Assembly (NCBI GenBank): GCA_017556045.1
Contig: JAFZFF010000015.1
Coordinates: forward strand, 1 to 32,909
Reading direction: 5' to 3'
Source of the DNA: Bacteroidaceae bacterium
GTDB taxonomy: Bacteria > Bacteroidota > Bacteroidia > Bacteroidales > Bacteroidaceae
DNA length: 32,909 bases
The notes under the pieces were generated by a model. The model saw only the letters and a list, made by a program, of their open reading frames with translations. It did not search any database and had not been told where the DNA came from. Of this stretch, positions 6,380-12,610 are shown one piece after another. Position 1 is the stretch's first letter. Each line of letters starts with the position of its first letter. The position numbers were made by a program, and so were the translations under genes.

Positions 6380-7159
6380 TTAATAAGTATGAACGCTGAC
6401 TCCCTGGGCAGAAGGGAGGAGATTAATGCCCCACCAACACATTTGCAGCAGGATAAAGCTGAATGTCAGCCAAGCAAATAGGAGGTGATGATTGCGGTTG
6501 GCTGGGCGGAGGTGCAGATAGAGCAGATAGCTGAACCATGTGGCTAAGGCCCACGTCTCTTTGGGGTCCCAAGTCCAATAATCACCCCATGCCTCTTTGG
6601 CCCAGAGAGCACCCATCGTCATGCCCAAAGAGAGGAAGGCCCAGCCTATGCGCACCAGGCTATCGCACACACTCCACTCCTCATCAGAGGGCTCTTCGGG
6701 CGACTTGCGTAGCCACAAATAGAGCGCAAAGAGCGTAGCGGCACCCAGCATGGCATAGGAGAACATATACACTATGACATGAGGCACGAACCATAGACTC
6801 TGCAGCGCTGGCATGAGGGTTTGGCTATGTATCTCGGGCTTTAAGATATTGATAAGCGTGAAGACCAGCGACATCAGTGTACTGAAGCCCAACATCCAGG
6901 GATAGCGGCACTTGCTATACAGACCTATACCCACTACGGAGAGGAAGAAAGAGTACCACAGACGGGTCTCACCCATCGTACGCAAGGGAGGGCGGTCAAG
7001 CACCATCCAAAAGCCTATGATAAAGACCAAGAAGATGGCCGAGCCCAAGCCCGACAGCACCAACGCACCACGCTGGCGCTTCCGAAAAGCACTGAGCGTA
7101 CCTGCCAACCAGCAGAGCACTGCGGCTATGGCAAAATAGGGGAACGACTGCCAATTCAT
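6380..7159 (-). CDS. ccsA: cytochrome c maturation protein CcsA (ResC)
   Basis: Integral membrane subunit of the system II cytochrome c maturation machinery, which moves haem across the membrane and presents it to apocytochromes. The 259-residue protein has about eight hydrophobic helices and the hallmark tryptophan-rich motif WGDYWTWDPKE (191-201). Candidate haem-ligating histidines are His127 (FVPHV) and His224/225. Its ATG overlaps the resB stop by 4 bp (ATGA), so the two are coupled. It is the last gene of the cytochrome cluster; the ileS promoter lies in the short gap after it. Confidence 0.95.
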   Translation of the reverse strand: MNWQSFPYFAIAAVLCWLAGTLSAFRKRQRGALVLSGLGSAIFLVFIIGFWMVLDRPPLRTMGETRLWYSFFLSVVGIGLYSKCRYPWMLGFSTLMSLVFTLINILKPEIHSQTLMPALQSLWFVPHVIVYMFSYAMLGAATLFALYLWLRKSPEEPSDEEWSVCDSLVRIGWAFLSLGMTMGALWAKEAWGDYWTWDPKETWALATWFSYLLYLHLRPANRNHHLLFAWLTFSFILLQMCWWGINLLPSAQGVSVHTY

Positions 7160-8367
7160 ACCTTCTCCTCCTTCTGTTTCTTACGGCTACCCCACCCCAT
7201 AGCAAATAGCAGAGCGCCAGCAGCCAATATCATCCACATGGCAATGTGTACCAAAGTGTACCAACCATCTTTCACGCATTCCAGCACGCTGATGGTGCTC
7301 CAGCGCCCACGCGCACTATCGTATCCCGTCTGGTATATCTTCCATGGGCCGAGAGTAGCAGGGTGGTTCACCGAGATGTCAAACGTGCGGCTCTGCTTGG
7401 CGCTTACGACCTCTACACGCGACAAGTATTTCTTGGCCTCACGCTGCGGCATCACCAGCTGACTGCCATCGGGCAAATGCAGTGTACTGCCACCGAAGAT
7501 ATGGCTACCACAACTCACCCACCCCTCGACAGACTGCCCCGTATCGGTGTGTACCGCCTTGAGGAGCACTGCCGTAGTAGCACCTACATGTTGCATGTCG
7601 ACATATCCCGAGTCGGCAGAGAGACGGGCTGCATGAGACAGATAGCCTACGCACTCGACCCTCCAAGGGCCAAGCTCTCCCCCACTACCCTCTCCGTCAA
7701 TCACGACAAACTCTGGTGAGAGCGCCTCCATGGCATACAGATGTATGTGGGGCGGATATTCATCGAGCACAAACTCCTTGAGCGTCAGCGCAAAGGGGAG
7801 CCTTGCCGACAATCCATCATGAGCAACGCCCATCTGCTCGGGCACTCCCAAGGGGAGCGTCACCTTCACCTTCTCCTTATCGCCACTACCAAAGATTGCC
7901 GCCGTAAAGATGATGAATACTGAGAGATGTATCAGCACATTGGGTAGCTTGCGCCTCCGCCAATGCCACACATCATCTATAGCCTTCAGGCCCATGACGG
8001 TAGTGAAGTGCAGCAAGAAGAGATTGAATATCCACGACGAGGACATCTGCGTGAGTCCCAAGACCCCAGCTAACCCTTCGGTAGAGCCATCTTGTCGGAT
8101 AAGGCCGAAGAGCAGTGTGAGCACCAGCATCGAGGCCAGTGAGGTGATATAGGCCGCACGGTCATACCACCGCTTCACCCACTGCCACTTGTCAGCATTG
8201 GCACGCAGTAGTATGAGCAGATAGAGGTAGTTGACAGCCAGTATCACTCCCCACGGATAGGCCAAGAATGAGGGGTTAGCCCTACCCAAAGAGAAATGCA
8301 ACGCTGTGCCTGCTCCCAAGAGCAAGACACAACGTTGCAACATACGTTTATATTGTTTTGAGAGCAT
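7156..8367 (-). CDS. resB: cytochrome c maturation protein ResB (CcsB)
   Basis: Partner of CcsA in system II maturation. The 403-residue protein has three or four N-terminal helices (about 10-30, 40-60, 75-95, and around 150-165 in LPNVLIHLSVFIIFTAAIFGSG). A large periplasmic domain follows, then one C-terminal helix (TLVHIAMWMILAAGALLFAMGWG) and a basic tail, the usual ResB layout. HLS in the fourth helix supplies a likely haem-ligand histidine. The gene starts 4 bp after the stop of the TIM-barrel gene and overlaps ccsA by 4 bp, so all three are almost surely one transcript. Confidence 0.9.
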   Translation of the reverse strand: MLSKQYKRMLQRCVLLLGAGTALHFSLGRANPSFLAYPWGVILAVNYLYLLILLRANADKWQWVKRWYDRAAYITSLASMLVLTLLFGLIRQDGSTEGLAGVLGLTQMSSSWIFNLFLLHFTTVMGLKAIDDVWHWRRRKLPNVLIHLSVFIIFTAAIFGSGDKEKVKVTLPLGVPEQMGVAHDGLSARLPFALTLKEFVLDEYPPHIHLYAMEALSPEFVVIDGEGSGGELGPWRVECVGYLSHAARLSADSGYVDMQHVGATTAVLLKAVHTDTGQSVEGWVSCGSHIFGGSTLHLPDGSQLVMPQREAKKYLSRVEVVSAKQSRTFDISVNHPATLGPWKIYQTGYDSARGRWSTISVLECVKDGWYTLVHIAMWMILAAGALLFAMGWGSRKKQKEEKV

Positions 8368-8371
8368 ATAC

Positions 8372-9289
8372 TTATGCTTGCTCCCACTGACTGCGCAGCA
8401 GCTCTACGGCAGCAGTCACAGTCTGTGTACGGTCACCCTTGGTGCCACACTCGAAGCTTACATAGTGAGGATACTCCAACTGCTTCAGAGCGCGGAATCC
8501 CTCTACATAGTTGTCCAGCTCGCCATCTTCACCAGGCATGATACGACGGCCACGGCTTGCCACGTGTACGTGTTGCAGGTACTCCTTACCAGCAGCCATG
8601 AAGGCAGCATAGTCAGAGGTCTCCTCCTGCATGTGCCAGAAGTCACCCATACACTTCACGCCAGCGCTCTTCGAGTCGCGACAGATAGCAGCAGCATCGG
8701 CCACCTGACGCAAGTAGTGAGCCTCCTTGCGATTGAGTGGTTCGAGGATTACAGTGGTATTATGCTTCAAGGCATATTCGCCCAGTTCATGCATCTGCTC
8801 ACACAAGTACTGACGGGTGTCGAGGGTGTGAGGCAAGCTGGGAGCCTGCCAGTTGAACACGGGCACCATGATGACACCTGTAGAGCCGAGCTCACCTGCA
8901 GCAGCGATGATATCGCGCATGGTAGCATCAAACTCAGCCTTCACCTTGGGGTCTTCGGCCAAGATAAAGCCACCGAAGCCTGCGCAGATAGCCGACAACT
9001 TGATATTACGACCCGAGAGCGCCTGCTGGAACTCACCCACACGGTTAGCGAGGTTACGTCCGCCCGGCTCGAAACCTACGATGCCGAGGTTCTCCATGAA
9101 GTCGAAGCGCTCGTTCAAGCTATCGCCCGGAGCGGTATGTTCCTGGAACGAGAGTCTCAGGGGAGTAGAGGGAATTTGCTCCTTCTTACATGCTGATGAG
9201 CATGAGGTGAGCATTGATGCACTTGAGGTAGTCAACGCTACTGAAGCGGCACCCAGCATAGAGCTGGTCAAAAATTTTCTTCTATCCAT
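8372..9289 (-). CDS. Tat-type lipoprotein sugar isomerase/epimerase-like TIM barrel
   Basis: A 305-residue protein with an N-terminal twin-arginine motif (DRRKFL) and a lipobox (MLTSC, Cys30), so it is probably exported folded and lipid-anchored. The rest resembles the xylose-isomerase-like TIM barrel family (AP endonuclease 2 fold). The expected metal-ligand pattern is visible: Glu183 (ILEPLNR), Asp216 and His219 (MGDFWHM), His242 (HVHVAS) and Glu280 (SFECG). Family members isomerise, epimerise or dehydrate sugars and keto-sugars; the substrate cannot be read from sequence. It lies directly behind a Gfo/Idh/MocA oxidoreductase, a pairing known from keto-sugar pathways, and 4 bp ahead of resB. 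Confidence 0.88.
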   Translation of the reverse strand: MDRRKFLTSSMLGAASVALTTSSASMLTSCSSACKKEQIPSTPLRLSFQEHTAPGDSLNERFDFMENLGIVGFEPGGRNLANRVGEFQQALSGRNIKLSAICAGFGGFILAEDPKVKAEFDATMRDIIAAAGELGSTGVIMVPVFNWQAPSLPHTLDTRQYLCEQMHELGEYALKHNTTVILEPLNRKEAHYLRQVADAAAICRDSKSAGVKCMGDFWHMQEETSDYAAFMAAGKEYLQHVHVASRGRRIMPGEDGELDNYVEGFRALKQLEYPHYVSFECGTKGDRTQTVTAAVELLRSQWEQA

Positions 9290-9315
9290 AATATTCTTTT
9301 TTTAGCTTAATTCTT

Positions 9316-9440
9316 AGGAGTTAAAGGTACTTAAAGGAGATACCACTTTGCTTCGTTGAGGAGTTAAATGCCGATAGTTTTGTACACCGCGTACAGCACA
9401 TTTGGCCTTTATCTCCATTTAACTCCATTTATCTCCTCAT
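9316..9440. repeat. intergenic repeat family A, copy 2
   Basis: Same orientation and core as copies 1 and 3 (GAGTTAAATGCCGATAGTTT, TACACCGCGTACAGCACATTTGGCC). It fills most of the 181-bp gap between the oxidoreductase and TIM-barrel genes. I see no minus-strand TAnnTTTG promoter in the gap. Confidence 0.8.
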
Positions 9441-9470
9441 CTACTAAAAATTTCCTTATCTCCTCAATGA

Positions 9471-10823
9471 TTATCTTGTCTTACCAGGTACTGCTACCTT
9501 ATAAGATTCCATGTCCATATCGCCGAGCTCGAGCTTTGCGGGCATGAGATCCATGTCAGACTTGCTCATCTCGTCCCAAGTGATAGTGCGTCCGGTATAT
9601 GCAGACTCACGGCCCATCACACCAGCCAAGCTTGAGATAGCACACTCTGTAGCCTCATCGTGCATGGTGCCCTTACGGATGTGGTTCACCCAGTCTACAT
9701 GCTCGAGTACATAGGGGTTGTGCTGCTTGAACTCAGCCTTTGCAGCCTCATCGTCATACTTCCAGAGCACGTTGCCCTTGAGATCCTTGATGGTATTGTC
9801 AAAGCTACTGTATACACCCTTCGTACCGTAGATAATCTCACCTACAGCATTGCTACAGCCATCGATCTGACGACACATACTGTGGAGGTGTACGCCATTC
9901 TCCATCTCAAAGTCGATGCTGAAGTTGTCATACTGGTCACCCGTCACACGGCGCTGACGGCTACCGAAACCTGTAGCCTTAGCCACCTTATAGCCCGACA
10001 TCCAGAGGAACACGTCGATATTGTGTACGTGCTGCTCTACGATGTGGTCACCAGAGAGCCATGTCCAGTTCACCCAGTCGCGAATCATCCACTCCATATC
10101 GCTCCACTCCTGCTGACGGTTGCGATACCAGAGCATTGACTGATTCCAATATACATTACCACCAGTGATCTCACCGATGAGACCAGCCTGGATCTGCTTG
10201 TTAGCCTCTACGTAGCGACGCTCGTGGTGACGCTGTGTACCTGTCACCACGCTCAGGTTCTTAGCCTGTGCCTGCTTAGCAGAAGCCATGATGGTACGGT
10301 ATCCCTTAGCATCTACAGCGATGGGCTTCTCCATGAATGAGTGCTTGCCCTTCTGTGTAGCGTATTGGAAGTGTACGGGACGGAATGCGGGAGGAGTAGC
10401 GAGAATCACCATATCTACGCCAGCATCTACTACCTGCTTGTATGCCTCGAAGCCGAGGAAGCACTTGTCATCGGGGATATTCTGTCCATGGTTCTTATTG
10501 AGGTCGCGCTGCAAGCCACCCATGCGGTCAGCAAACACATCGCCCAACGCCACTACCTTGATATTGTTAGCAGCTGCGAGCAGGTCCTTTACAGCACCGC
10601 TACCACGGCCACCGCAACCAATCACACCTACCTTCAGCTCGCGGCCATCGATAGCCATATCGGGCAGTTCGGGTACATAAAACTCACCGGGGTTCTTCAG
10701 GGGCACCAATGCGTTGCCATCCTTACATGATGCGAGCAGTGCTGATGCACCTACTACGCTACCTACACCCAGTACGGTAGAAGCCTGCAAGAAGCTTCTT
10801 CTGTTCATCTTGTTCTCACTCAT
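9471..10823 (-). CDS. Tat-type lipoprotein Gfo/Idh/MocA oxidoreductase
   Basis: A 450-residue NAD(P)-dependent oxidoreductase. The N-terminus has a twin-arginine motif (NRRSFL, Arg8-Arg9) and a lipobox (LLASC, Cys33), so export and lipid anchoring are likely. The Rossmann fold starts with VGVIGCGGRGSG (65-76). The family's catalytic-region motif EKP is at 165-167, and a His-rich active-site segment follows (SGDHIVEQHVHNID, 258-270). Exported members of this family oxidise sugars with a tightly bound, recycled cofactor, often making 3-keto sugars; that is family knowledge, and the substrate here is unknown. The gene lies between the tetraheme cytochrome and the TIM-barrel gene. Related GH109 enzymes share the fold, so hydrolase activity cannot be excluded. 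Confidence 0.9.
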   Translation of the reverse strand: MSENKMNRRSFLQASTVLGVGSVVGASALLASCKDGNALVPLKNPGEFYVPELPDMAIDGRELKVGVIGCGGRGSGAVKDLLAAANNIKVVALGDVFADRMGGLQRDLNKNHGQNIPDDKCFLGFEAYKQVVDAGVDMVILATPPAFRPVHFQYATQKGKHSFMEKPIAVDAKGYRTIMASAKQAQAKNLSVVTGTQRHHERRYVEANKQIQAGLIGEITGGNVYWNQSMLWYRNRQQEWSDMEWMIRDWVNWTWLSGDHIVEQHVHNIDVFLWMSGYKVAKATGFGSRQRRVTGDQYDNFSIDFEMENGVHLHSMCRQIDGCSNAVGEIIYGTKGVYSSFDNTIKDLKGNVLWKYDDEAAKAEFKQHNPYVLEHVDWVNHIRKGTMHDEATECAISSLAGVMGRESAYTGRTITWDEMSKSDMDLMPAKLELGDMDMESYKVAVPGKTR

Positions 10824-10866
10824 GGTTCTTTATATTTTTGTGTTGTTATGTTATTCTTTCATTATG

Positions 10867-10992
10867 TAGTTAAATGGAGCTAAATGGAGATATCGCTTCG
10901 CTCTTGGGGAGTTAAATGCCAATAGTTTGGTACACCGCGCACAATACATTTGGCCTTTATCTCCATTTATCTTCCTTTATCTTCTCATCTCC
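10867..10992. repeat. intergenic repeat family A, copy 3
   Basis: Third copy, same orientation. Its ends are nearly complementary: AAATGGAGCTAAATGGAGATA on the left against TTTATCTCCATTTATC on the right. After it, iterated CTCTTCACTCTTAACTCTT runs to the stop codon of the cytochrome gene at 11031. No minus-strand promoter match is seen in the 207-bp gap. Confidence 0.8.
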
Positions 10993-11030
10993 TCAAAAAT
11001 TTCACTCTTCACTCTTAACTCTTCACTCTC

Positions 11031-12554
11031 TCAAATTCCCTCGGGCACCTCACACACTACGCGGAAGCCGATACCCTTGATGTCAGAGTACCACCAGATG
11101 CTCTTGGGGTTCTGCGGGTCGGTGCGGAGCCACTCGTCATGCTGTGTATGGCTACGAGCTGCACATCTCAACTCTGCCGCATCGCTCGTGTAGTTACCAC
11201 CACGCACCACGTGCTCTGTACCGAACTCGGGGCCCTTGGGGTCCTTGGCGCCATCGCTCAGCTGGCTGTATGCATCCTCGGCATACCAGTCAGAGCAATA
11301 CTCCATGACGTTACCCAACATATTCTTCAGTCCGAACGGGTTGGCCTGCACCAGACTGGGCTCCTGCGTACGGCTCTGACTATTGTTCACATATATAGCA
11401 TAGCTATTGATATATGCAGTGTCGGCACCGAAGAGTCCGTTCCAGAAGCCCTCGTTAGAGTACTTCTTGGGCTTACCCTCGAAGAAGTATGCACCTGTGG
11501 TACCGCCACGTGCAGCATACTCCCACTCAGCCTCTGTCGGCAGACGATACTTCTTACCCGTCTTCAGTGACAACCACTGGCAGAAGGTCTCAGCCGAGTA
11601 GTGCGTCATCGTGATGGCAGGACGATCGCCCATGCCCCAGCCCTGGTCGGGGAATCCAAACGGAGGAGTAGGACCGCTCACTGCGTCTACATCCTCGCGG
11701 CTATTGTTGGCATAGATCACCATGGGAGGCGTACGTCCCTCTGACATGGTCTCACCATAGAATGCCCAGAACTGATCCCAGGTCACCTCCATCTCGCCCA
11801 TGAAGAAGCGCGACACCTCTACGCGGCGTTGCGGAGCCTCATCAGCCTCGTGGAAAGGCTCTGACTCGGGCGAACCCATCTCGAACTCACCACCGGGGAT
11901 AGCAATCATGCTGATGGCAGCCGATGTGCCGGGCACGGTCTCCACGTAGTTCTCGAAGCTTGTCACCTCAGCGGCAGCCTCATACACCACACCACTACCC
12001 TTGGGAGCCTCCGTCAGTGCAGCATGCTTATAGTTGGGGTTATAGTGACCCGCATCCAAGTGGCAATTGATACAGTGCTGGTCGCCGCTAGCCTTGTTAT
12101 CATCGTAGTAGAGGTGTGCAGTGACACCCTCGTCAGAGATGCCCTCAGGGTAGATGTTCACGTGGCAAGCCTCGCACGACTCATTGTACACAATCTTGCG
12201 AGCATACTCCAGCTCGCCCTTAGCATCCCAGTTGATATCCTCCTTATCCTTGGTGAGGTACGACCACACATCCTTCACGCCAGCCGAGAGCTTCGCCTTG
12301 GTATAGTCCATCGTGCCACGGGGCGGCAGGTGACAAGCTGCACAGTCGGTCTTCGTACCACTCTGACTATTGTAGTGTACCGACTGCTTCCAGTTGATGT
12401 CAGCATCCGTATGATAGTGACACGACATACATGAGTCATTCAGCGAGCTCTTGTCCCAAGCCCAGTTAAATGCGATGATCAGTGAAAAGCCAGCCACCAC
12501 GATGGCCAAAGCTCCCAAGAATATGAGTTTCTTATTTTTCTTTTTTTCAGACAT
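11031..12554 (-). CDS. tetraheme NrfH/NapC-like cytochrome fused to a formylglycine-enzyme-like domain
   Basis: A 507-residue two-part protein. Part 1 has one N-terminal membrane helix (about 9-31) and four CXXCH haem sites (42-46, 71-75, 127-131, 161-165). The text between the first two resembles the NrfH/NapC family of membrane menaquinol-oxidising cytochromes. Part 2 (about 214-505) resembles the FGE-sulfatase/SUMF1 fold: IPGGEFEMGS, the RLPTEAEWEYAARGG block, GLKNMLGNVMEYCSDWY, VVRGGNY and a GFRVV end. The two active-site cysteines of true formylglycine-generating enzyme, expected just after RGG(S/N)(F/Y), are not present (TSDAAELRCA instead), so formylglycine formation is unlikely. No NrfA is found nearby. 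It is the first gene of the cluster that ends with ResB/CcsA, which would load its haems. Confidence 0.92.
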   Translation of the reverse strand: MSEKKKNKKLIFLGALAIVVAGFSLIIAFNWAWDKSSLNDSCMSCHYHTDADINWKQSVHYNSQSGTKTDCAACHLPPRGTMDYTKAKLSAGVKDVWSYLTKDKEDINWDAKGELEYARKIVYNESCEACHVNIYPEGISDEGVTAHLYYDDNKASGDQHCINCHLDAGHYNPNYKHAALTEAPKGSGVVYEAAAEVTSFENYVETVPGTSAAISMIAIPGGEFEMGSPESEPFHEADEAPQRRVEVSRFFMGEMEVTWDQFWAFYGETMSEGRTPPMVIYANNSREDVDAVSGPTPPFGFPDQGWGMGDRPAITMTHYSAETFCQWLSLKTGKKYRLPTEAEWEYAARGGTTGAYFFEGKPKKYSNEGFWNGLFGADTAYINSYAIYVNNSQSRTQEPSLVQANPFGLKNMLGNVMEYCSDWYAEDAYSQLSDGAKDPKGPEFGTEHVVRGGNYTSDAAELRCAARSHTQHDEWLRTDPQNPKSIWWYSDIKGIGFRVVCEVPEGI

Positions 12555-12579
12555 AACGACACTTTTTACTACGGATATG

Positions 12580-12610
12580 CAAAGATACTGATATTCCCAC
12601 CAACATCAAA
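12580..12610 (-). promoter_or_regulatory. promoter of the cytochrome / oxidoreductase cluster
   Basis: On the minus strand, TTTG (12610-12607), a 19-bp spacer and TATCTTTG (12587-12580) are a full match to the Bacteroidota consensus. It lies 25 bp upstream of the cytochrome start codon, and it is the only such match I find ahead of the five-gene cluster. Confidence 0.85.

Follow-up and report, generated by a model that had tools for sequence, protein, structure and literature searches.

A tetrahaem cytochrome fused to a SUMF1-like domain and paired with an exported Gfo enzyme in Bacteroidales, a possible electron outlet for 3-keto-glycoside breakdown

What would a multihaem cytochrome do beside exported enzymes of sugar chemistry? 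The question is raised by a five-gene locus on contig JAFZFF010000015.1 (assembly GCA_017556045.1) of a Bacteroidaceae bacterium whose genome is about 78% complete; we analysed the first 32,909 nucleotides of this contig, hereafter the window, and all coordinates are window positions. The minus strand carries all five genes (12554–6380), in the order cytochrome fusion, Gfo/Idh/MocA oxidoreductase, TIM barrel, resB, and ccsA; gene calls and Pfam families confirmed this arrangement, which had first been read from the sequence alone. We propose, with a probability of roughly 0.5, that the locus is an extracytoplasmic electron-transfer module that serves 3-keto-glycoside sugar breakdown as an electron outlet for sugar oxidation. 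Its first three genes are as follows (Tat, twin-arginine translocation).

11031..12554, minus strand: NapC/NrfH tetrahaem cytochrome fused to a SUMF1-like domain, 507 amino acids (Pfam, structure model)
9471..10823, minus strand: Tat-lipoprotein Gfo/Idh/MocA oxidoreductase, 450 amino acids (Pfam, alignment)
8372..9289, minus strand: Tat-lipoprotein TIM barrel (AP_endonuc_2, xylose-isomerase-like), 305 amino acids (Pfam)

The fused cytochrome was found in 16 of the 201 genomes of our family sample, and a Gfo ortholog was found in the same 16; in the order sample (295 genomes), 38 genomes from 20 families carried the fused protein. We compared 30 fused loci, consisting of the window, 15 family relatives, and 14 named loci, and the Gfo gene adjoined the cytochrome–SUMF1 gene in all of them (upstream of it in L039). 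Among the family relatives, Gfo was next to the cytochrome in 15/15, and the TIM barrel followed Gfo in 14/15, the fifteenth contig ending there. Among the named loci, a TIM barrel with 54–71% identity followed in six (L034–L038 and L040), and one was present within 3 kb in 8/14 when the weak matches in L042 and L046 were included. Relatives might have kept the cytochrome and ResB/CcsA together without the enzymes, which the sequence-only reading had named as the outcome that would speak against it; the reverse was found, in that the pairing of cytochrome and Gfo held and the proximity of ResB/CcsA did not. The conserved core is thus the cytochrome–SUMF1 protein together with the exported Gfo enzyme.

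Genomes with this core almost always carry the 3-keto-glycoside pathway known from Bacteroides. Excerpts of the literature describe BT2158 as a periplasmic glycoside 3-dehydrogenase required for disaccharides (PMC11300592), name BT2157 a 3-ketotrehalose hydrolase, and put forward DUF1080 proteins as candidate hydrolases of 3-ketoglycosides (PMC9007349). Using the NF058561 model with E values up to 1e-100, we detected the BT_2158 dehydrogenase in 16/16 family genomes with the module vs 21/185 without it (Fisher 7e-14), and in 36/38 vs 42/257 genomes of the order sample (Fisher 4.5e-22), where the two module genomes without BT_2158 were 61% and 76% complete and both genes were found together in 19 families. 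Matches to the 3-keto-disaccharide hydrolase family PF06439 averaged 10.4 (5–13) in the 16 genomes with the module and 1.35 (0–6) in 20 without; within genus g1 alone, the corresponding ranges were 5–13 and 1–2. In G034, G186, and G060, 4.7–8.9 kb separated a BT_2158 gene from the cytochrome (8.9 kb in G060). The stretch directly after ccsA in G186 encodes a BT_2158 member (898 bits), a PF06439 protein, a TIM barrel, and TatC, and in G034 the pathway genes precede the cytochrome with one gene between. In L043–L045, an exported Gfo lies downstream (158 bits to BT_2158 in L043), accompanied in L045 by a ThuA protein. In 14/16 module genomes, tatC and a BT_2158 gene were no more than 4.5 kb apart; TatC itself barely separated the genomes (16/16 with and 17/20 without the module). 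The extracytoplasmic sugar-redox role tied to keto-sugar chemistry that had been suggested for the locus is supported by this co-occurrence.

Several observations weigh against this proposal. The window Gfo scored 29.8 bits against NF058561 (cut-off 750), and a separate true BT_2158 member (831 bits) is encoded in the same genome; the idea that the window Gfo is the BT_2158 enzyme itself was rejected on that score, and, judged by its sequence, it is a different Gfo from the BT_2158 family. The BT_2158 gene was 47–59 kb from the cytochrome in G089, G120, and G148, and the copy compared was on another contig in 10/16 family genomes. A keto-hydrolase like that of L019 and L021 was found within 9 kb in none of the 14 named fused loci. 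BT_2158 also occurs without the module (the 21/185 and 42/257 genomes above), and the pathway therefore does not require it. Because the genomes are related, the Fisher values exaggerate independence, though 19 families carry both genes. Finally, characterised NapC/NrfH proteins move electrons from quinol outward, which is the reverse of the direction that we favour.

Regarding the Gfo enzyme, the nucleotide-binding fold PF01408 was recognised with 40.5 bits, and G69, G71, G74, and K166 were invariant in the 25 rows of alignment A4, in which the following motif was also invariant.

10323..10331, minus strand: EKP, residues 165–167 of the Gfo protein (alignment)

We take EKP to be the catalytic-lysine motif of Gfo enzymes, and NAD(P)-dependent sugar chemistry is predicted. 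The N-termini of the Gfo and TIM-barrel proteins both contain, by eye, a twin arginine and a lipobox, and the twin arginine of Gfo was present in 67/67 aligned rows reaching that column (69 rows in total). Gfo genes without an export signal were also seen near the module (L039 11651–15211, L035 5975–7144, L040 5331–6497, and L069 7706–9960), those of L039 and L069 being accompanied by a TIM barrel and that of L039 also by a transporter-like gene; they may serve this pathway at its cytosolic end.

The cytochrome part of the fusion matched the NapC/NirT domain PF03264 with 86.6 bits (cut-off 24.1) and contains four CxxCH motifs.

12417..12431, minus strand: haem motif 1, CMSCH, residues 42–46, with His48 at the place of the NrfH Met (alignment)
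12330..12344, minus strand: haem motif 2, residues 71–75 (alignment)
12270..12293, minus strand: Lys88 to Asp95, aligned with the Lys/Asp pair of NrfH 2j7a_C (alignment)
12162..12176, minus strand: haem motif 3, residues 127–131 (alignment)
12060..12074, minus strand: haem motif 4, residues 161–165 (alignment)

A profile of 14 N-terminal domains matched NrfH (2j7a_C, E 2.7e-8), which was not among the matches of a single-sequence phmmer search with the cytochrome part. K88 and D95, seven residues apart, were invariant in the 14 aligned domains and fall on the Lys/Asp pair of NrfH, presumably its menaquinol site. This alignment favours the putative menaquinone link that the sequence-only reading had put forward for the cytochrome. 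Four haems, an N-terminal membrane helix (present in the structure model), and the Lys/Asp pair are shared with NrfH; in contrast to NrfH, the window protein has a C-terminal SUMF1 domain and His instead of Met after haem 1, this His48, two residues past the haem-1 His, being invariant in alignments A1 and A3. NrfA (PF02335) was not found in the same genome or in 15/16 module-bearing family genomes, which sets the cytochrome apart from the usual NrfH; a role as NrfH in nitrite reduction was rejected for this reason. Two copies of the fused cytochrome were observed in G403, G477, G311, G491, G459, and G431, the second copy in G431 comprising residues 161–504 only. In several relatives, a small predicted secreted protein (136–153 amino acids) is encoded just 5' of the cytochrome gene (L023 9465–9875, L024 8243–8704, L030 11144–11554, and L032 9117–9530); the L032 copy had no Pfam match.

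In the scheme that we propose, of which we infer the substrate, the cofactors, the complex, and the direction, the Tat-exported Gfo would exchange hydride with a sugar or keto-sugar via tightly held NAD(P), the SUMF1 domain would relay electrons to the four fused haems, and the haems would exchange electrons with menaquinone. On the oxidative route, electrons would pass from a glycoside to NAD(P)H in Gfo, and from there through SUMF1 and the haems to menaquinone, with a flavin in SUMF1 possibly splitting the electron pair into single electrons; such an outlet would keep exported sugar dehydrogenases from stalling. Isomerisation or cleavage of the keto-sugar would fall to the TIM barrel, and haem loading to ResB and CcsA, which stand beside the module in some genomes only. 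We consider the oxidative direction more likely than the reductive one.

The same wiring could run in reverse, from menaquinol through the tetrahaem domain and SUMF1 to Gfo, which would serve respiration as an electron sink by reducing a 3-keto-sugar or a compound like it. Membership in the NapC/NrfH family, whose known members are quinol oxidisers, and the Lys/Asp pair aligned with NrfH speak for this reversal, as does the mostly anaerobic life of Bacteroidales. However, the Verrucomicrobiota versions of the fusion described below have PSCyt1 rather than NapC-type domains, electron flow from NADH to menaquinone is downhill, and the Met after haem 1 of NrfH is an invariant His here, a change that may bear on direction. 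We regard the reversed flow as rather unlikely, while granting it a real share of the probability.

The closest known kind of system is the cytochrome-linked extracytoplasmic sugar dehydrogenase, with different parts. The BT2157/BT2158 pathway of Bacteroides likewise combines an exported Gfo/Idh enzyme, a TIM barrel, and keto-sugar chemistry, and its co-occurrence with the module is near-obligate at the genome level, but the window Gfo falls outside the BT_2158 family; the word 'cytochrome' is absent from the main text of PMC9007349. According to excerpts of the same paper, the LacABC-type enzyme of Caulobacter, with a homologue in Pedobacter, is a membrane-bound system for the periplasmic oxidation of glycosides to 3-keto forms beside DUF1080 hydrolases (PMC9007349). 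Periplasmic glycoside 3-oxidation with DUF1080 hydrolases alongside would be the common ground. LacABC, a GMC-type enzyme that depends on flavin adenine dinucleotide, brings a small subunit and a cytochrome of its own, whereas the window has Gfo, SUMF1, and a NapC/NrfH domain instead.

The sequence-only reading had recognised the cytochrome as a fusion and overlooked the fusion partner, an FGE-sulfatase/SUMF1 domain (PF03781, 143.9 bits, residues 215–472), which pairs with Gfo across several phyla. It belongs to a subfamily marked by the block DPQxPKSxWW.

11091..11108, minus strand: PKSIWW, residues 483–488 of the fusion, part of the SUMF1-subfamily signature (alignment)

Loci L034–L113 are the 80 kept out of 544 that matched TEAEWEY or PKSIWW[YL]S; this selection is not random, and it biases comparisons made with the PKSxW motif. 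Pairs of SUMF1 and Gfo without the cytochrome recurred in Planctomycetota, Verrucomicrobiota, and other Bacteroidota, in some cases next to apbE. In five Verrucomicrobiota loci, elsewhere on the tree, the same subfamily is fused to another c-type cytochrome, PSCyt1 (L053 and L082, Pfam-confirmed; L055, L064, and L071, read from sequence). In the Flavobacteriaceae loci L050, L052, L056, and L094, a YceI-like gene follows the SUMF1 gene (by Pfam in L050, by eye in the others); next comes a PSCyt1-PSCyt2-PSD1 protein in L050 (Pfam) and a similar 781-amino-acid protein with two CxxCH motifs in L056. We found no paper on a SUMF1–Gfo–cytochrome system in the portion of the open-access literature covered.

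The SUMF1 domain might instead, like formylglycine-generating enzyme (FGE), modify or mature other proteins, with Gfo and the TIM barrel as targets or bystanders. The window domain has the fold of FGE and PvdO; however, it lacks the FGE cysteine pair, carries DPQxPKSxWW, and is paired with Gfo and cytochromes. Nothing in the window protein corresponds to the segment that bears these cysteines in human FGE, and none of 24 aligned rows had cysteines at the place of the catalytic pair. FGE-type sulfatase activation was rejected because this pair is missing, and we consider the broader role in protein modification or maturation improbable.

If SUMF1 is an electron relay, how would it handle a hydride? 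Haem alone does not split the hydride of NAD(P)H, and a flavin in SUMF1, or a centre of comparable kind, would therefore be plausible. One loop of the domain could hold it.

11667..11687, minus strand: loop D290-AVSGP-T296, resembling the ApbE flavinylation motif D-x-x-[ST]-G-A-[ST] (alignment)

We suggest tentatively that the SUMF1 subfamily may constitute a novel type of electron relay, flavinylated by ApbE or binding a flavin, between NAD(P)H in the exported Gfo and c-type haems, a suggestion that is more probably wrong than right. Flavin mononucleotide (FMN) on the conserved Thr/Ser of the D290–T296 loop would take hydride from NAD(P)H held in Gfo and would pass single electrons to the c-type haems, to which the subfamily would have been joined separately in the NrfH-like and PSCyt1 cytochromes. 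According to an excerpt of the literature, ApbE attaches FMN at the final position of D-x-x-[ST]-G-A-[ST] (PMC12052999). We aligned 80 SUMF1 proteins (30 fused and 50 others), in which Asp at 290 and Thr/Ser at 296 were each present in 80/80. All 30 fused proteins had Ser/Thr at 293 and Gly at 294, with Pro (27) or Ala (3) at 295; the other 50 had Ser/Thr at 293 in 40, Gly (7) or Arg (28) at 294, and Pro (43) or Ala (7) at 295. The exact motif was found in 7/80, in two parts of the tree (L045–L047 and four Flavobacteriia), and in 8 of the 1,105 predicted proteins of the 80 loci, seven of the eight being SUMF1 proteins. An apbE gene was present within 3 kb in 17/50 SUMF1-only loci and 0/14 named fused loci; five SUMF1-only loci that reach a contig end (L049, L058, L062, L066, and L084, with 24–1204 bases downstream) were kept in these counts. 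In the 17 apbE loci, the [ST]GA[ST] motif occurred in two Gfo proteins and in no SUMF1 protein. Residues 272–296 had a predicted local distance difference test score (pLDDT) below 50 in the structure model, which would fit an exposed loop or may mean that the model is poor there.

The case against a flavin is substantial. The window loop, DAVSGPT, departs from the ApbE motif at one position (Pro for Ala). The T. curvata FGE also has an Asp aligned with D290, and therefore D290 alone is no argument for a flavin. None of the 17 apbE loci had the exact motif in its SUMF1 protein, and none of the four exact-motif Flavobacteriia had apbE within 3 kb. ApbE presence did not separate the genomes (15/16 with vs 18/20 without the module); the source genome has one copy, away from the locus. 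Compared with known ApbE-flavinylated carriers (FMN-bind, DUF2271, and DUF3570), the likeness lies in apbE near 17/50 SUMF1-only loci and the exact motif in 7/80, and the difference is that their flavin is covalent, whereas that of SUMF1 is a putative feature. The words 'sulfatase' and 'Gfo' are absent from the main texts of PMC8238504 and PMC11334425, and 'formylglycine' from that of PMC11334425.

The remaining features concern the layout of the locus and the haem-loading genes.

12580..12610, minus strand: Bacteroidota-type promoter TTTG-N19-TATCTTTG (sequence match)
7156..8367, minus strand: ResB-like haem-delivery protein, optional neighbour (Pfam)
6380..7159, minus strand: CcsA-like cytochrome c assembly protein, optional neighbour (Pfam)

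The cytochrome start codon lies 25 bp past TTTG-N19-TATCTTTG (12610–12580), which we take to be the Bacteroidota promoter consensus, and no full match to it was found in the two inner gaps (207 and 181 bp). The single consensus promoter claimed for the locus thus stands, and the gap sequences gave no sign of separate promoters for the enzyme genes. The TIM barrel, resB, and ccsA are as tightly packed as had been reported, with a 4-bp gap between the first two and a 4-bp overlap between the last two. Both inner gaps contain a 98-nt repeat (9356–9453 and 10904–11001, 87% identity), a 23-base core of which has a third exact copy outside the operon (2235–2257); an Rfam scan at gathering thresholds gave no match, the repeat included. 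Gene spacing in relatives was mostly 2–75 bp (exceptions: L045, 150 bp; L046, 135 bp; and L039, with Gfo upstream). That the cytochrome and ResB/CcsA form one unit and the two enzymes another is very improbable, the wide gaps of the window speaking for such a loose neighbourhood, and the repeat within them, the short spacing in relatives, and Gfo beside the cytochrome in 30/30 fused loci, vs ResB/CcsA in only 4/29 relatives, against it.

ResB and CcsA had been presented as integral to the module, which the relatives contradict: the two were adjacent in 4/29 and usually missing from the neighbourhood, and they were rejected as defining partners on that count. The System II domains were clear in the window (ResB 38.9 vs cut-off 24.6 bits; CcsA PF01578 105.2 vs 29.9 bits), while the CcsB equivalog cut-off was not reached (122.2 vs 187.6 bits). 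CcsA was the only PF01578 protein found in its genome at the completeness given above; in the family genomes, PF01578 matches were on other contigs save in G000, G034, and G186 (G006 weak). ResB, with CcsA where the contig reaches, adjoined the core in 3/15 family relatives (L019, L020 to the contig end, and L021), and a ResB–CcsA fusion followed it in 1/14 named fused loci (L034). A profile combining 29 CcsA pieces with two others retrieved no further CcsA among the called genes of L019–L047; those calls omit the CcsA gene of L021, which tblastn finds. In L032, L033, and L035, no more than 0.9 kb remains past the last core gene, and these three stretches are uninformative on ResB/CcsA.

Gfo/Idh enzymes use NAD(P), yet many are exported to places that are not known to contain a free pool of it. 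The proposed module offers a concrete answer to how their cofactor is turned over, namely a dedicated electron path to the quinone pool, and such a path from Gfo fits organisms in which much sugar is C3-oxidised outside the cytoplasm. If the flavin proposal were true, a new protein class would join extracytoplasmic flavin chemistry, and a flavinylated relay would constitute a respiratory branch for extracytoplasmic, NAD-linked sugar oxidation.

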